42,519 nucleotides of DNA, taken from positions 1 through 42,519 of IMG/VR virus record IMGVR_UViG_3300031576_000126; one strand, 5' to 3'. A program made the translations under genes and the position numbers. The DNA is from a virus. Under the pieces are notes generated by a model. The model searched no databases. It was given only the letters and a program-made list of their open reading frames with translations, and was not told the origin of the DNA. This document shows, one piece after another, positions 2,909 through 40,975 of this stretch. Position 1 is the stretch's first letter; every line of letters starts with the position of its first letter.

Positions 2909-4743
2909 TGAGTGAAGAAACTTACAAAGAAATAGCGGGAATTATCTCTAAAGAAAAAACGGCCTGGGAACAAGGCGTTGTTACTGTTGCTGACGCAGTT
3001 CAGTACACAATGCGTGAAGAGATAGACTCTGCACGAAAAAATTACTTTGGTAAGTTCAACCAGCCAAAGGATCCAGATACAGGGCTTGATAAGTTATACG
3101 TTCCCCTTATTGAGTGGACGGTTGAGTCTGTTGTTAAAAACACAGATAAAGATCTGAAAGATATGCGGGTTAAGTCTCCAGAGGGGAGAAATAAAGCCCT
3201 CGGGAGTATTGTTAAATTATCCCTTTTAAATGTTCTAAAGAGAATTAATTTTTCTGAAACTATCAACGATATGATTCGTCGGGTTACAATCGATGGAACT
3301 GTTGTAGTTAAAATAACAGAAGAATATAATAAAGAATTTAAGCGAATTCTCCCGAAAGTTAGAATTGTTGATACTTTAAATTTAATACTAGACAGGAGTG
3401 CGTACTGCCTCCAAGATGTTCCTATAATTGAGAAGTCGGTCATGACGATTGCAGAAATATCTCAACACAAAGACTGGCAGAATAAAGATAAAATTCGATA
3501 TACACAAGATTCTGTTCCTGTTACTGTTGTTCTTGAAAGGTGGGGGCCAGTACGAAAGTCGTGGGTTTCTGGAGAAGAAAAAGAGAGAGATGTGTGGGTA
3601 GAGGGAATAATTGTTGCCTCTACAAGTAAAGCAAATGATAACAGAATAACAAACACACCATCTGGAGCTGGGGATACTGGAGAAACTGCTATTACGATAC
3701 ATAAGATTTTAATAAATCCAAAACCATTTAAGCCGTACGAAGAAGGATGGCTTCGTCGTGTTCCGTCAAGATGGGACGGACGAGGAATACCTGAACAGTT
3801 ACGGTCTCTCCAGGAGTGGATGAACACAGTTGTTAATATGCGACGCGATGAAACCCTTAATAAACTTACTGGAAAATATAAAGTTAGAAAGGGTTCTGGT
3901 ATAACACGGCAGATGCTTCAAGGACTGAAAGCTGGCGGAGCTATTGTCGTTGAAGAAATGGAAGATATTCAAGAACTTATAGAACGAGATGTTAAACCTT
4001 CTGCATATCAAGAGCCACGAGAAATTATCTCGATGGCAGATCGAGTTACTGGTTCATTTGAAATTTCACGTGGGGAATCACTTCCAGCTTCTCTTCCAGC
4101 AACAACAGCAGTTCTCCAAGATAGAGGAAGTAAGAGTACCTTTGAACTCATTCAAGAAAATATGGGTCTTATGTTTGAAAGAATGATTAGACGACACCTT
4201 ATCCCGATGATAGTTTCAGAATTGACAGAAAATGAAGTTCTTCGACTCACTGGAGAATTTGAAGACCTTGAGATAATCGACCAGAGTATCATTGACGTTC
4301 TAATTAACGAAGAGAGAATAAAAATGCGAAGAACTGGTGCTTCATTTAATATTTACGATGAGAGGGAAGTGAGAAAGAGAGCTGAAAAGAAATACAAATC
4401 AATGGGCAAAGATAGACTTGTTAAAATTAATAAGGCTATGTTTGACCCGTATTATGATGTTGATGTAGACTTTAGTGGTGACAAATTTGACCCAGCAGTA
4501 TTGGCTAGAAGCCTGAACGATGTTCTCTTTAATTACGCACAAATCCCTGGAATAAATCTTGATACAGACGGACTTGTAAAAGAGATACTCGATGTACTTG
4601 GTATTTCTGGTTCACGATTTGTTAGACCTGGAGCAGCACAGAATACACAGAATTTACAACCAGAAGCACTCGGACAAGTGCCAACATCTACAAATGTTAA
4701 CACCCGTGGTAGATTAGAAGCTCTCGGCCCACAACAAAGATGA
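2908..4743 (+). CDS. Portal protein
   Basis: A 611-aa protein directly after the large terminase, with the size and composition of podovirus-type portals: an N-terminal acidic/helical region, mixed alpha/beta wing (LKDMRVKSPEGRNKALG, FSETINDMIRRVTIDGTVVVKI), a segment PSRWDGRGIPEQLRSLQEW typical of portal proteins, and a C-terminal helical region (MFERMIRRHLIPMIV) before a polar tail. As dodecamer at one capsid vertex it would anchor the motor and later the tail adaptor encoded at 14293. Start ATG overlaps the terminase stop by one base. Confidence 0.9.
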   Translation: MSEETYKEIAGIISKEKTAWEQGVVTVADAVQYTMREEIDSARKNYFGKFNQPKDPDTGLDKLYVPLIEWTVESVVKNTDKDLKDMRVKSPEGRNKALGSIVKLSLLNVLKRINFSETINDMIRRVTIDGTVVVKITEEYNKEFKRILPKVRIVDTLNLILDRSAYCLQDVPIIEKSVMTIAEISQHKDWQNKDKIRYTQDSVPVTVVLERWGPVRKSWVSGEEKERDVWVEGIIVASTSKANDNRITNTPSGAGDTGETAITIHKILINPKPFKPYEEGWLRRVPSRWDGRGIPEQLRSLQEWMNTVVNMRRDETLNKLTGKYKVRKGSGITRQMLQGLKAGGAIVVEEMEDIQELIERDVKPSAYQEPREIISMADRVTGSFEISRGESLPASLPATTAVLQDRGSKSTFELIQENMGLMFERMIRRHLIPMIVSELTENEVLRLTGEFEDLEIIDQSIIDVLINEERIKMRRTGASFNIYDEREVRKRAEKKYKSMGKDRLVKINKAMFDPYYDVDVDFSGDKFDPAVLARSLNDVLFNYAQIPGINLDTDGLVKEILDVLGISGSRFVRPGAAQNTQNLQPEALGQVPTSTNVNTRGRLEALGPQQR

Positions 4744-13245: not shown

Positions 13246-14306
13246 GAATAGGCGGTAATATTTTGTTCATTCATAATTCCACAGGGAGTCGTCTTTATAG
13301 GATACTTCCACAAGCTAAGTATATGGGCTCTGTGGGATGGGACGTAAAAGTTCGTGGTCTTCGTAATGGAAAGACGGGAGGGGTTTCGAGTGATCTCCTC
13401 GAGTGGGCAGATCTTGTTGTCGTTGAGATGGTCTACTCTCCCGACTTTATAAAGGCATGTAGAAAGGCTGGATGTAAAATAGTATATGAGATTGATGATT
13501 TAATGCAATGGGTTCCGAAAGAACATTACGCATACAAAGAAATGAATTGGTGGAGGACATTTTTGACATTTTACTGCCTTACGAAAGTTGATGCTATTGT
13601 TGTTACAAATGAAAAACTTAAAGAGGCATACAAATGGTTCAACTCAAATATTGTAGTTTTTTCAAATTATATAGATTTAGAATATTGGGCTAAGGAAACT
13701 TACAAAAATACAGGAAAGAAAATACGTCTAGGGTGGGCAGGAGGAAATTCACATAAGGAAGATTTAGAATTTATTGCCCCCGTTCTGAAGAATATCCTCA
13801 AAAAATATCCGAATGTTAAATTTGTAGCGACTGGATTTGGTGGAAAGGAGTCTGATGATCCGTGGACGAAATACAATTATGGAAGTTCCCCGTTTAAGGA
13901 TTTACCACAGGATCAGTATGAATATTCTCTCGGTGCGCCAATGGAAGTTTTTTCTTCGAAGTTGGCCACGATGAGGTACGATATAGGGATAGCTCCTGTT
14001 GTCCAGAATAAGTTTTCAGAGTGCAAAACACCATGTAAAGCTCTTGAATATGGAATTAATTGGGTACCTGGGGTTTACTCAGAGTTTTTATACAAAGACG
14101 CTGTTATTGACGGGGTTACGGGATACCTTGCAAAAGAAGACCCGAAAGAGTGGGAAGAAAAAATATCGCTTTTAATAGAAAACAAAGAAAGAGAAAAGAT
14201 GGGATTGTCGGCATTTCAGTATGTCGTTGATAAATTCTCTTTTAATCAGCATGGTCATAAGTGGCATGAATTATACGATAAAGTATTAAAAAATGGAATG
14301 GAATAA
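13239..14306 (+). CDS. Glycosyltransferase, GT-B fold
   Basis: A 355-aa protein with two Rossmann-like lobes. N-terminal: NILFIHNSTGSRLYRILPQ, VVVEMVYSPDFI, CKIVYEIDDLM. C-terminal: KKIRLGWAGGNSHKEDLEFI, a nucleotide-sugar lobe start, then DIGIAPVVQNKFSECKTPCK with ALEYG (the family's acidic donor-site motif) and VIDGVTGYLA. This pattern is that of GT4-like transferases found in surface-polysaccharide clusters. It is the last enzyme of the sugar module; its stop overlaps the tail adaptor start by 14 bases, so sugar and virion genes share transcription. Confidence 0.87.
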   Translation: MVRIGGNILFIHNSTGSRLYRILPQAKYMGSVGWDVKVRGLRNGKTGGVSSDLLEWADLVVVEMVYSPDFIKACRKAGCKIVYEIDDLMQWVPKEHYAYKEMNWWRTFLTFYCLTKVDAIVVTNEKLKEAYKWFNSNIVVFSNYIDLEYWAKETYKNTGKKIRLGWAGGNSHKEDLEFIAPVLKNILKKYPNVKFVATGFGGKESDDPWTKYNYGSSPFKDLPQDQYEYSLGAPMEVFSSKLATMRYDIGIAPVVQNKFSECKTPCKALEYGINWVPGVYSEFLYKDAVIDGVTGYLAKEDPKEWEEKISLLIENKEREKMGLSAFQYVVDKFSFNQHGHKWHELYDKVLKNGME

Positions 14307-26970: not shown

Positions 26971-26998
26971 TTGACAAACTAATTGAGTTTGTTATACT
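26971..26998 (+). promoter_or_regulatory. Promoter of the lysozyme-like gene; leaderless start
   Basis: TTGACA (26971-26976), 16-base spacer, TATACT (26993-26998), then six bases and the ATG at 27005. With the usual start six to eight bases below the -10 box, transcription begins at the ATG itself. It shares CAAGAAACTTGACA with the promoter at 21-50 and has the same geometry as the one at 31013-31040. Confidence 0.8.
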
Positions 26999-27004
26999 AT
27001 AACC

Positions 27005-27382
27005 ATGAAAGCAATAGTAGTGGCTGTTCTGGCTCTTCTTTTGTTCTTGCCAGTACAAACACTAGAACTTGCGGAAGTACAACCCATTCGTCAAGAGACG
27101 ATCGACCCGTGGGTTGGGTATGAAGAACTAAAGACTATATGTACATGTGAAAGTGGTCTTATACATGAGGTCAATGGTAAAGTGGTTCGCGGTCAGATTA
27201 ATAGTGAAGATATTGGAATTTGTCAAATAAATAGATTTTACCACGGAAAACGTGCGACATCCCTTGGACTTGACCTGATGATTAAAGAAGATAATATAGC
27301 TTTTGCTAAATTACTCTTTAATGAACAGGGCTCTCGTCCGTGGAATTGGTCACGTTCGTGTTGGGAAAAATCAGTCAATTAG
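27005..27382 (+). CDS. Secreted lysozyme-like/lytic transglycosylase-like protein
   Basis: 125 aa. A signal peptide (MKAIVVAVLALLLFLPVQT) precedes a small lysozyme-like domain: CTCESGL with E49 as the candidate acid, then DIGICQINRFYHGKR and GLDLMIKEDNIAFAKLLFNE, ending RPWNWSRSCW. The glutamate-Ser-Gly, G-x-CQIN and terminal PWNWS-C pattern is that of short lysozyme-fold proteins which I recall in Patescibacteria genomes. It would cleave glycan strands. Four cysteines may form disulphides in an external location. Expression is from its own promoter with a leaderless start. Confidence 0.75.
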   Translation: MKAIVVAVLALLLFLPVQTLELAEVQPIRQETIDPWVGYEELKTICTCESGLIHEVNGKVVRGQINSEDIGICQINRFYHGKRATSLGLDLMIKEDNIAFAKLLFNEQGSRPWNWSRSCWEKSVN

Positions 27383-27390
27383 TTTTGACA

Positions 27391-27455
27391 GGGGATGAGA
27401 TGGTCAGGCTTTGATTATATCTTAGCTAACGAGGGTTCGATTCCCTCCATCTCCA
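27391..27455 (+). ncRNA. 65-nt tRNA/tmRNA-like element (reduced)
   Basis: GGGGATG (27391-27397) pairs fully with CATCTCC (27448-27454), including a G3-U70 wobble, the alanine identity mark that tmRNA and tRNA-Ala share. A perfect T arm follows the canonical form (GAGGG-TTCGATT-CCCTC, 27431-27447) and A27455 is the discriminator. The 33 bases between (27398-27430) are too few for both D and anticodon arms; GGCT/AGCT can form one small stem. CCA is not encoded. It may be a tmRNA tRNA-like domain without its message part, a degenerate tRNA or an old attachment site. Confidence 0.5.
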
Positions 27456-27480
27456 TTAGAAGTTCTTTGAAGGAGAAAAT

Positions 27481-28005
27481 ATGTTTCAAGACAAGCAAAG
27501 AAGGTTTTGGGACTTTTTGTTCCGTTTTCTTCTTGTTGGTTTTCTTATTTTTGTGTGGATTTTCATTATTTTTGGTTGTGCTTCTTCTCCTGACCGTACA
27601 CTTCTTGTTGTACATGAAGGAGAATTGGTTGGGATTGATAGGATACGGGATGTATTTTGTATTCGTGTTCGCACGAATGACGATACTCAGGTTCTTTCAT
27701 GTCGTAGACCGCCTACTTCCACGAATAAAGATGTGGCAAAAGAAGCATTCGGGTGGATTGAACATTACGCCAAAAATGAAACACCTCATATCAGAATTGG
27801 TGGAGTGGTTGCGACACATGACAACGAAGAAATAATCTCTGGGATAGACATTATTCCCCTACTTCTCTCAATTCACGACCGTGAAAGGGATGTGTGGATT
27901 TCTATTGACCTCTCGTTTGGTGAATCACGCTTCAAAGAAGCGATGAAAATGATGCCTCAACTGCTCTTTGAGCTTTCAAAGAAAGGAGTTAAGGCGGCAC
28001 TATGA
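27481..28005 (+). CDS. Membrane-anchored (lipoprotein-like) hypothetical protein
   Basis: 174 aa. A long hydrophobic N-terminus (FLFRFLLVGFLIFVWIFIIF) ends in a cysteine (GC-ASSPD), compatible with a lipobox or a transmembrane anchor. The remaining domain is alpha/beta and outside the cytoplasm if lipidated (LLVVHEGELVGIDRIRDVF). Start decided by Shine-Dalgarno GAAGGAG five bases before the ATG, unlike most genes here. Could act in superinfection exclusion or lysis, but no family is recognised. ATGA overlap with the next small frame. Confidence 0.7.
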   Translation: MFQDKQRRFWDFLFRFLLVGFLIFVWIFIIFGCASSPDRTLLVVHEGELVGIDRIRDVFCIRVRTNDDTQVLSCRRPPTSTNKDVAKEAFGWIEHYAKNETPHIRIGGVVATHDNEEIISGIDIIPLLLSIHDRERDVWISIDLSFGESRFKEAMKMMPQLLFELSKKGVKAAL

Positions 28006-38727: not shown

Positions 38728-39813
38728 TTATCTATTCGCTGTAAGGACAAGAAGATTATAGAGTTCCATTTTAAGTTCTTTTAGTTTTTCGTTATAATCC
38801 TCTTTCTCTTTCAATAATTCTTCTACTAGGTTTGTGTTGTTTCTTGAATCTACTATAAAGGCTTCGCAAGTTTCTATAATGTTTTCCAATTCCTCTACAT
38901 CACTTTCCAATTTTTCTATTTGTAACTCATGATCATTTCCATAACTCTTATTGTCTCCATTATAGTCTCCTTTATTGTCTCCATTATCATAATAAGTAGA
39001 TATGGGGGCATTTAGTTGTGTTGAGGGTAGTCTACTGCTCCAATAATCATACTCGGTATTATATCCAGTATATCCAATAGTCCTCATCTTACCTATATCT
39101 ACGGGATAGTGTTCTATATTGTGTACGTCCGTTTTTGATATTTTGTACATTTCATCAACGAGTACACTATTATTTCCGCTCTCGGAGGAGATACAAAAAA
39201 AGTCTTTTTGTGTTTGGTATTTCAACGGGTTTCCTGTGTTCCTTCCAAAAAAGATATTTTTAACTGTACTGTTCGTATATTGTATCGCTATGAAAGCAGA
39301 AGATCCAATAGCTTCAATGCTATTTTGTTTCTTCTCAAGAAAAAGGGCTACTTCTATACTAAATGCCTCTGAATCGTTATAATAATTTTCTTGCGATATG
39401 TAAGTATTTGTTTTTGTTTTGTATTCCGTTTTCTTCTTCATTTCGGTTGAGTAAGGTATCCTCATTTTCTTGTGCTTCTCTTTTAGTTCATCATCATTTG
39501 AGACGATACCATTATGTAGAAAAAGGTATTCATTCTTTAGTGTCCTACTCTTTATGTGTATCGGGTGTGCCATTTCCTTTAAGTTTGGAGTGCTTGTTGG
39601 GTATCTGTGATGGAAGATTATAAAGTTAGCGTCCTCTTTCTCCATTTTTTTAAAAATATCTTTCTCACTTCTCTGAATGGAAACTACCTTGTTGTCTTTT
39701 ATTGCCACATACCCGAAGCCATCATTTCCGCGATCTTTTTGCATATGGTATCTTTTTTGAATCGCCCTTGTTGGATTTTTGTCTTTTTGGAGTACAGCTA
39801 TTATCCCGCACAT
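38728..39813 (-). CDS. Class II glutamine amidotransferase (Ntn-type)
   Basis: 361 aa. It starts MCGIIAVLQ, so C2 becomes the N-terminal nucleophile after Met removal. Family motifs: DRGNDGFGYVA (27-37), FHHRYPTSTPN (68-77), HPIHIKS and LFLHNGIVSN (98-106). It releases ammonia from glutamine. No synthetase domain is attached; instead residues 285-355 are low-complexity (DNGDNKGDYNGDNK) followed by a coiled coil (KLESDVEELENIIETCEAFI). The ammonia must go to another protein, and the obvious partner is the amidoligase whose stop lies one base before this ATG. Confidence 0.87.
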   Translation of the reverse strand: MCGIIAVLQKDKNPTRAIQKRYHMQKDRGNDGFGYVAIKDNKVVSIQRSEKDIFKKMEKEDANFIIFHHRYPTSTPNLKEMAHPIHIKSRTLKNEYLFLHNGIVSNDDELKEKHKKMRIPYSTEMKKKTEYKTKTNTYISQENYYNDSEAFSIEVALFLEKKQNSIEAIGSSAFIAIQYTNSTVKNIFFGRNTGNPLKYQTQKDFFCISSESGNNSVLVDEMYKISKTDVHNIEHYPVDIGKMRTIGYTGYNTEYDYWSSRLPSTQLNAPISTYYDNGDNKGDYNGDNKSYGNDHELQIEKLESDVEELENIIETCEAFIVDSRNNTNLVEELLKEKEDYNEKLKELKMELYNLLVLTANR

Positions 39814-39814
39814 A

Positions 39815-40975
39815 CTAATTATTCTCGTTTATTCTGCTGATAATATAATCTCTTGTGTTGTTAGAAAGCCCGATAATTTCGGATAGTGCTTTTGTTTTTT
39901 TCCGTACGTCGTACACACTTGATAAATTACCTACTTTCCCCGCGAGAGCACTTTTTGATAGGTAGATTATAATTTTCTGGTGTATCTCTATCCACCGTAG
40001 AATCTTCTCTGTATTTATAGTCCCCGAATGGTATCTTATTTCAATAGTACCCCTATCCATAAATAGAGAGTGCAGATTTAGTCCATAGTATCGCATATTG
40101 TCGTATTTTTCAGCCTTTCTTTTTTTTATAGACTCGTACGAGTCGTTATAGTAAAGCTTCTCTATGTTTTCAATAGTATTGAATCTTGACATATCTCTAA
40201 TAGAAAACAGTTTTTCCATTTTTAAGCAAAAATTGTTTTCTCTTCTGCTTTGTGGGAGCATAGAAATGAGTATATCTTCTATAATTGAGTACCCGATGAT
40301 AATGCTCCGAAGTTTCCACGCATTTTTTTTTAACTCTTTTCCCTCTATGTGTAAGTGAAACCCGCAAGACTTGTCTACAGAAAAGGCATTCTTTTGTAAA
40401 AACTTGCATATAAGGCGGATCGTCCTTTCACCTGCTTTTCCCTTTAGTGGTGGGGTTATAATTTCAACGCCATTTTCGGATAATGAGTGATCCTCTGCTA
40501 TTCCTACATAAGATGGCAGTTCATTTACTACCCCGCTTTCGTCAATAACCTCAAGCTCTACTCCGAATGAGTAGTACGGTGGTACAATTCTTCCTGCTTC
40601 TTCCGAAAGGAGGAAGGGTTCTTTTCTATAATTTCTGAAGTATGAAGAATATGGAGGATAATATGTGGTAGAATGTGGAATATTTAGTGCGTCTGCTGGT
40701 GTTGGTTCTGGTGTTTGGTTTCCTATGTTGGCTCTGTAATCATGTATAGTATGAGCAGAACAGAAGCGTATATCTGGTAGATCTAGATCACTTCTGCATT
40801 CTGTACAAGTCATATTCCAGCATACAGCACAGAATACCCCAGAGTAAATGTTTAGACTTCTTGTCCCTAAGTCGGACAACATTTCTGCATTTAGTTCAGA
40901 TGGAAGAAGTACAGCACAGCTTCCCCGTGGTATTTCTTTATGACAAACAGAACAGTTTATATTTCGTGTTGGCAT
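39815..40975 (-). CDS. Amidoligase-family enzyme with N-terminal zinc module
   Basis: 386 aa. Residues 1-75 carry four ligand pairs: CSVC (8/11), CAVC (49/52), CTEC (57/60), CSAH (72/75), spaced C-x2-C-x37-C-x2-C-x4-C-x2-C-x11-C-x2-H as in RING/FYVE cross-brace fingers. A Pro/Tyr-rich linker (85-133) follows. The core has FGVELEV (137-143), AEDHSL and VEIITPPL (160-177), CGFHLHIEG (204-212) and MDRGTIEIRYHSGTI (306-320), the pattern of glutamine-synthetase-fold amidoligases that form amide bonds between a carboxylate and an amine. Substrates are unknown. Confidence 0.8.
   Translation of the reverse strand: MPTRNINCSVCHKEIPRGSCAVLLPSELNAEMLSDLGTRSLNIYSGVFCAVCWNMTCTECRSDLDLPDIRFCSAHTIHDYRANIGNQTPEPTPADALNIPHSTTYYPPYSSYFRNYRKEPFLLSEEAGRIVPPYYSFGVELEVIDESGVVNELPSYVGIAEDHSLSENGVEIITPPLKGKAGERTIRLICKFLQKNAFSVDKSCGFHLHIEGKELKKNAWKLRSIIIGYSIIEDILISMLPQSRRENNFCLKMEKLFSIRDMSRFNTIENIEKLYYNDSYESIKKRKAEKYDNMRYYGLNLHSLFMDRGTIEIRYHSGTINTEKILRWIEIHQKIIIYLSKSALAGKVGNLSSVYDVRKKTKALSEIIGLSNNTRDYIISRINENN

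Follow-up and report, generated by a model that had tools for sequence, protein, structure and literature searches.

We identified the 65-nt RNA encoded at 27391-27455 (+) of a viral DNA stretch of 42,519 nt (the window) as, judged from its sequence, a further example of the TLD-only (CDS-less) tmRNAs, which are already known but rare. On the same grounds, this kind of RNA, rare so far, proves widespread in phages. We consider it rather probable that the window RNA would act as a free-standing, alanine-chargeable tmRNA TLD, a decoy competing with host trans-translation.

Structure and setting of the 65-nt RNA

The RNA reads as two tRNA-like halves enclosing just 33 nt, compared with the about 41 nt that separate the acceptor and T arm of an ordinary tRNA. 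We found that the acceptor GGGGATG/CATCTCC has 7 bp, six of them Watson-Crick and the other G3-U70, and that the T-arm strands occupy 27431-27435 and 27443-27447 (Table 1). The features originally predicted, namely the 7-bp acceptor containing G3-U70, the 5-bp T arm and its loop, and the discriminator A, were confirmed from the sequence. The D-loop analogue has the form GG-UCAGG, common to the L028 and L153 relatives, and its position-8 purine and GG are kept in tmRNA-type relatives. The 65 nt contain neither a tag reading frame nor a pseudoknot or an anticodon arm. The predicted absence of the message part and pseudoknots also held, given the 33-nt middle and an Rfam alignment (RF00023) that covers the TLD ends only. 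The claim that there is no room for an anticodon arm stood in part: such an arm is absent, but a short central hairpin does fit and corresponds to the P2 of tmRNA. This P2-like hairpin is weak in the window, with 4 bp plus 3 bp and two U-U mismatches between them.

Table 1. Features of the 65-nt RNA and its surroundings in the window
Feature	Positions	Strand	Details
Acceptor 5' strand GGGGATG	27391-27397	+	G3 = 27393; 7/7 paired with 27448-27454
D-loop analogue AGATGGTCA	27398-27406	+	Purine at position 8; GG = 27402-27403
P2-like hairpin GGCT..AGCT, inner GAT/ATC, loop TAT	27407-27427	+	Minimum-energy fold
Linker AAC preceding the T arm	27428-27430	+	GAC or AAC in most relatives
T arm, 5-bp stem GAGGG/CCCTC, loop TTCGATT	27431-27447	+	Sequence; RF00023 alignment
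Acceptor 3' strand CATCTCC and discriminator A	27448-27455	+	U70 = 27452; A = 27455
Upstream ORF, 125 aa	27005-27382	+	Lysis-region neighbour; 8 nt upstream of the RNA
Downstream ORF, 174 aa	27481-28005	+	Starts 25 nt past the discriminator A; has a ribosome-binding site
Candidate promoter TTGACA-16-TATACT (11/12)	26971-26998	+	Consensus scan only

The isolated 65-mer folds at -22.3 kcal/mol (z -2.0), and its acceptor and T arm have a probability of 0.99. With the flanks 27340-27480 the acceptor probability was 0.0 and the TLD was lost, and other contexts gave 0.2-0.4. Since the predicted fold drops the TLD in some flanked contexts, the RNA would have to be processed or to fold cotranscriptionally. 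Because TTA rather than an encoded CCA follows A27455, CCA must be added to the RNA.

The RNA sits in a 98-nt gap between two ORFs of the same strand. Another ORF (27395-27835) overlaps it in a frame different from that of the downstream ORF, and was taken as chance. The promoter-like site is a possible source of the transcript. It ends 6 nt upstream of the ATG of the upstream ORF, and the transcript of that ORF might be leaderless. We also sought relatives of the phage itself. A search with the lysis-region ORF protein gave one match, which was spurious, and the 65-nt RNA was found in none of 8 contigs with a related terminase (30-44% identity). Against isolated phages, the best identity of the window terminase was 34%. 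At one genome end (38728-40975, -), a weak glutamine amidotransferase match adjoins an Amidoligase_2 enzyme gene.

Class membership and precedents

When the original prediction of a tmRNA-like RNA was checked with Rfam and ARAGORN, the tmRNA family RF00023 matched the 65-nt RNA at 42.4 bits (E 1e-13 over the window), below its gathering score of 47, and ARAGORN called neither a tRNA nor a tmRNA. A covariance model of the short class of relatives (R3), built from 29 sequences that excluded the window, gave a single match in the window, the 65-nt RNA (52.8 bits, E about 1e-9, 5e-10), and reached 42.2 bits at most on tRNA-Ala controls. In the R3 alignment the window P2 was out of register, so energy prediction is the sole source of this helix in the window. 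The first model, R1, scored the window at 37.8 bits and tRNA-Ala at 37.1, and was rejected as a classifier because of these near-equal scores; R3 performed better.

The RNA might also be a decayed, functionless tRNA-Ala or tmRNA gene, since its acceptor and T arm are common to tRNA-Ala and its middle is short with a weak P2. However, acceptor and T arm are both intact, position 8 is A in the window RNA but mostly T among the tRNA-like controls, the R3 score lies 10 bits above tRNA-Ala, and the architecture recurs with covariation over at least 115 clusters. We therefore regard decay as improbable.

Phages commonly integrate at the 3' ends of tmRNAs and tRNAs, and a tRNA attachment-site remnant had been among the original suggestions. 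Such sites do adjoin integrases in Gordonia phage Yeezy, Tsukamurella TPA4, and Mycobacterium Shandong1 and Milly. However, no tyrosine integrase (PF00589) was found in the window, and 5 of 29 carrier records hold one. Furthermore, the complementary 5' half of our RNA is present and paired, unlike in real tmRNA and tRNA attP controls, which reach 25.8 bits at most with R3 or give no match. A plain attP that copies the 3' end of a host tRNA or tmRNA is thus disfavoured, and we rate it as very improbable.

In terms of known classes, the acceptor, D-loop analogue and T arm of a TLD-only tmRNA are all present, and the alanine identity elements G3-U70 and A73 are found in the sequence. The RNA resembles canonical tmRNA (RF00023, RF04321) in its G3-U70 acceptor, T arm and predicted P2 and, for most relatives, in the D loop GG-UUCGAC. 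However, canonical tmRNAs measure about 260-400 nt, and the mRNA-like domain, resume codon, tag and pseudoknots are missing from the 65 nt; a canonical tmRNA, standard or permuted, was therefore rejected on length and Rfam alignment. A second tmRNA piece was not found in the window at the Rfam gathering score. We rejected a two-piece tmRNA, for which there were sub-threshold matches only (alpha_tmRNA at 14040-14147, 18.9 bits; tmRNA_permuted, 19.3 bits). The likeness to tRNA-Ala comprises G3-U70, A73 and the T arm, but the window RNA has no D stem or anticodon arm, carries a purine for U at position 8 and is ARAGORN-negative. Since R3 separates the two as well, tRNA-Ala identity was also rejected.

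The latest tmRNA database holds 97,179 unique sequences, including 79 from phages and nine labelled 'standard, no CDS', and DS6A is the only phage example of that label named there (PMC11915505). Mycobacterium phage DS6A has a TLD-only tmRNA (Mao et al. 2009, as cited in PMC4131195 and PMC11915505). In E. coli, a DS6A-like RNA is reported to inhibit the host tmRNA strongly (PMC4131195, PMC11915505), independently of the chargeability of the RNA (PMC4131195). Compared by description, the DS6A and window RNAs are both phage-encoded, hold little beyond the TLD and have no tag reading frame. DS6A is one published phage case, with inhibition reported for a similar RNA, whereas here the RNA comes from another phage and belongs to a large family. 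The plastids of Mallomonadaceae have CDS-less tmRNAs of about 65 bp (PMC11915505), equal in size to the window RNA and likewise a TLD without a message; these are organellar and presumably reduced from a resident tmRNA, whereas ours is viral. We found no further reports of phage mini-tmRNAs or TLD decoys in the open-licence literature, beyond which an unseen report is possible.

Relatives in phages and conservation of G3-U70

To collect relatives, we scanned IMG/VR for end patterns with a variable middle and ran BLAST on isolated phages. The first end-pattern scan recovered ordinary tRNA-Ala alongside many non-tRNA sequences of 56-80 nt. For the family count, G3 was fixed, position 70 was left free, and a fully paired acceptor was required. 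We identified at least 155 distinct sequences of 55-81 nt, in at least 115 clusters below 85% identity and at least 231 loci. Their common architecture comprises the acceptor, a tmRNA-type D loop, a capped P2 helix and the T arm; the typical relative starts with GGGGNUG, has the D loop GG-UUCGAC and a P2 often capped with UAAAGCC...GG, and continues with the linker GAC. The short class of about 55-70 nt, like the window, accounts for 47 loci and 32 distinct sequences including the window. The cap (G)UAAAGCC-NCA-NG-GG-A recurs across phages of unrelated hosts in most 75-81-nt relatives (L080, L165, L164). Its conservation exceeds the requirements of a plain hairpin, and the window and the L028 group are without it.

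Among isolated phages, carriers include Stenotrophomonas phage Jojan60, Pontimonas phage phiPsal1, Vibrio phage D239, the Streptomyces phages LuckySocke, pSt2308, BRock, Alone3 and Riptide, and Microbacterium phage Skylord, which has a longer form. None of the isolated-phage carrier records has a tmRNA annotation at the mini-RNA. One viral contig (L031) carries two different mini-RNAs (1298-1374 and 3208-3288) about 1.9 kb apart, the second with the acceptor GGGTGTG/CACATCC and G3-U70 retained.

The location of the window RNA, on the same strand between two ORFs and with the next start 25 nt away, would also suit a cis-acting tRNA-like element that, in the mRNA of a neighbouring gene, serves as a signal for processing or stability or mimics a leader. 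Of 45 relatives, 36 lie outside tRNA clusters, which agrees with this idea. However, the neighbours vary from a DNA primase (Jojan60) and the major capsid protein (phiPsal1) to tRNA arrays (Streptomyces phages), and G3-U70 and a tmRNA D loop would be superfluous for a processing signal. We consider a cis-acting element quite unlikely. The earlier suggestion that the RNA acts within the leader of the next gene is accordingly weak, since relatives adjoin unrelated genes or tRNAs.

We compared viral and cellular sequences for the same patterns. The CCA-encoding pattern was found at 36 loci in viral contigs and at none in 84,980 bacterial and archaeal genomes. The pattern without CCA occurred at at least 120 viral loci, versus 14 stretches in these genomes. 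Six of the 14 look genuine, with a fully paired acceptor; metagenome-assembled genomes account for four of them and isolates for two. Thus, the near-absence of the tested patterns from cellular genomes indicates that the mini-RNA is essentially viral. In the Actinomadura violacea isolate (L182 3042-3119) the mini-RNA lies within an eight-tRNA array, near a phage-type single-strand-binding protein, and in Cellulomonas massiliensis (L183 779-858) near a phage-type helicase; both are probably mobile elements.

Since SmpB was found in 0 of 30 carrier records (fragments among them), the RNA would have to rely on SmpB from the host. Over 30 carriers, RF00023 gave a full-length tmRNA match in Riptide only (PV654398; 94862-95130, 92.9 bits). 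The Riptide mini-RNA (L164 3972-4048) has the acceptor GGGUUUG/CAAAUCC, unlike that of the full-length match. In Gordonia phage GMA2 (L271 2842-2898), a Pistol ribozyme match of 56.8 bits lies in the tRNA array after the tmRNA match.

To examine the predicted helices, we looked for compensatory changes among the phage relatives, as the original prediction called for, and found that the stems covary strongly and that acceptor changes are compensated. In 77 members aligned on a nine-member model, standard pairs made up 95.8% of cells, compared with 68.9% when shuffled. The covariation score was 0.557, versus 0.109 when shuffled and at most 0.061 when slid by 1-3 columns, and 8/8 pairs of P2 vary on both sides. 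Fitting the alignment to the model accounts for part of the pairing excess, and a few of the rows are ordinary tRNAs. Pair 5:68 and the outer T-arm pairs, which the search patterns left unconstrained, covary in the raw sequences too. Contiguous P2 length averages 6.2 bp, compared with 3.6 bp in shuffled middles, and the short class reached 98.3% standard pairs versus 72.2% when shuffled.

G3-U70 is the identity pair of alanyl-tRNA synthetase. With position 70 free in the search, U70 was found in 155/155 distinct relatives among the matches listed. With positions 3 and 70 both free, all 26 distinct sequences had G-U. In a search with G3 fixed and position 70 free, U70 occurred in 86/87 among the matches listed, and the exception has a local acceptor deletion. 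Elsewhere the acceptor changes: all four Watson-Crick forms are present at 5:68, and 4:69 is a compensated U-A in Riptide, LuckySocke, BRock and the second L031 element and a compensated C-G in Skylord, with G3-U70 kept throughout. That G3-U70 persists in divergent phages speaks for selection on charging.

Proposed role in ribosome rescue

In the proposed mechanism, host tRNA-processing enzymes would cut the 65-nt RNA from a phage transcript and the host nucleotidyltransferase would add CCA. Its conserved G3-U70 and A73 suggest that host AlaRS would then charge it with alanine. The retained D loop, elbow and acceptor suggest that it could replace host tmRNA on SmpB and EF-Tu. Since the RNA has no message, it could not direct tagging, which would put it in competition with host trans-translation. 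Either it may keep SmpB from tmRNA (titration), or it may enter stalled ribosomes as a dead-end alanine acceptor. These submodels differ in their need for G3-U70, so its conservation favours the charged dead-end acceptor. Simple SmpB titration would not explain the strict U70, because the published inhibition occurred regardless of chargeability (PMC4131195). The E. coli result itself, drawn on here by analogy, appears compatible with both submodels and leaves both open.

The main rival to the decoy reading is a minimal rescue helper, in which the charged mini-RNA and SmpB would clear stalled ribosomes untagged and truncated phage proteins would survive. This idea faces the difficulty that we know of no release step for a message-less TLD, although the U70 of all relatives among the matches listed suggests that the charged form matters. 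CDS-less mitochondrial tmRNAs, which co-occur with targeted SmpB, are thought to aid incomplete mRNAs (PMC11915505) and lend it some support. However, in the published test a similar RNA inhibited tmRNA (PMC4131195, PMC11915505), and we consider a rescue helper unlikely.

Returning to the decoy, the original proposal of an alanine-chargeable tmRNA-like RNA, with a predicted action on ribosome rescue, gained from the covarying viral family, U70, the tmRNA-type D loop and the DS6A precedent. More tentatively, with somewhat less than even confidence, we suggest that message-less tmRNA mimics charged with alanine form a large family specific to viruses, which would have evolved to override rescue in many hosts as dead-end acceptors on stalled ribosomes. 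If true, the family could be seen as the RNA equivalent of protein anti-host factors, with the window RNA as its minimal 65-nt form.

Taken together, at least 155 distinct forms, nearly all viral, now stand against nine 'standard, no CDS' sequences in the database (PMC11915505). Several occur in sequenced phages of culturable Streptomyces, Stenotrophomonas, Pontimonas, Vibrio and Microbacterium. The strict G3-U70 points toward a charged form in use and poses the question of why a decoy would need alanine. If the mini-RNAs inhibit or redirect trans-translation, ribosome rescue would be a common phage target.
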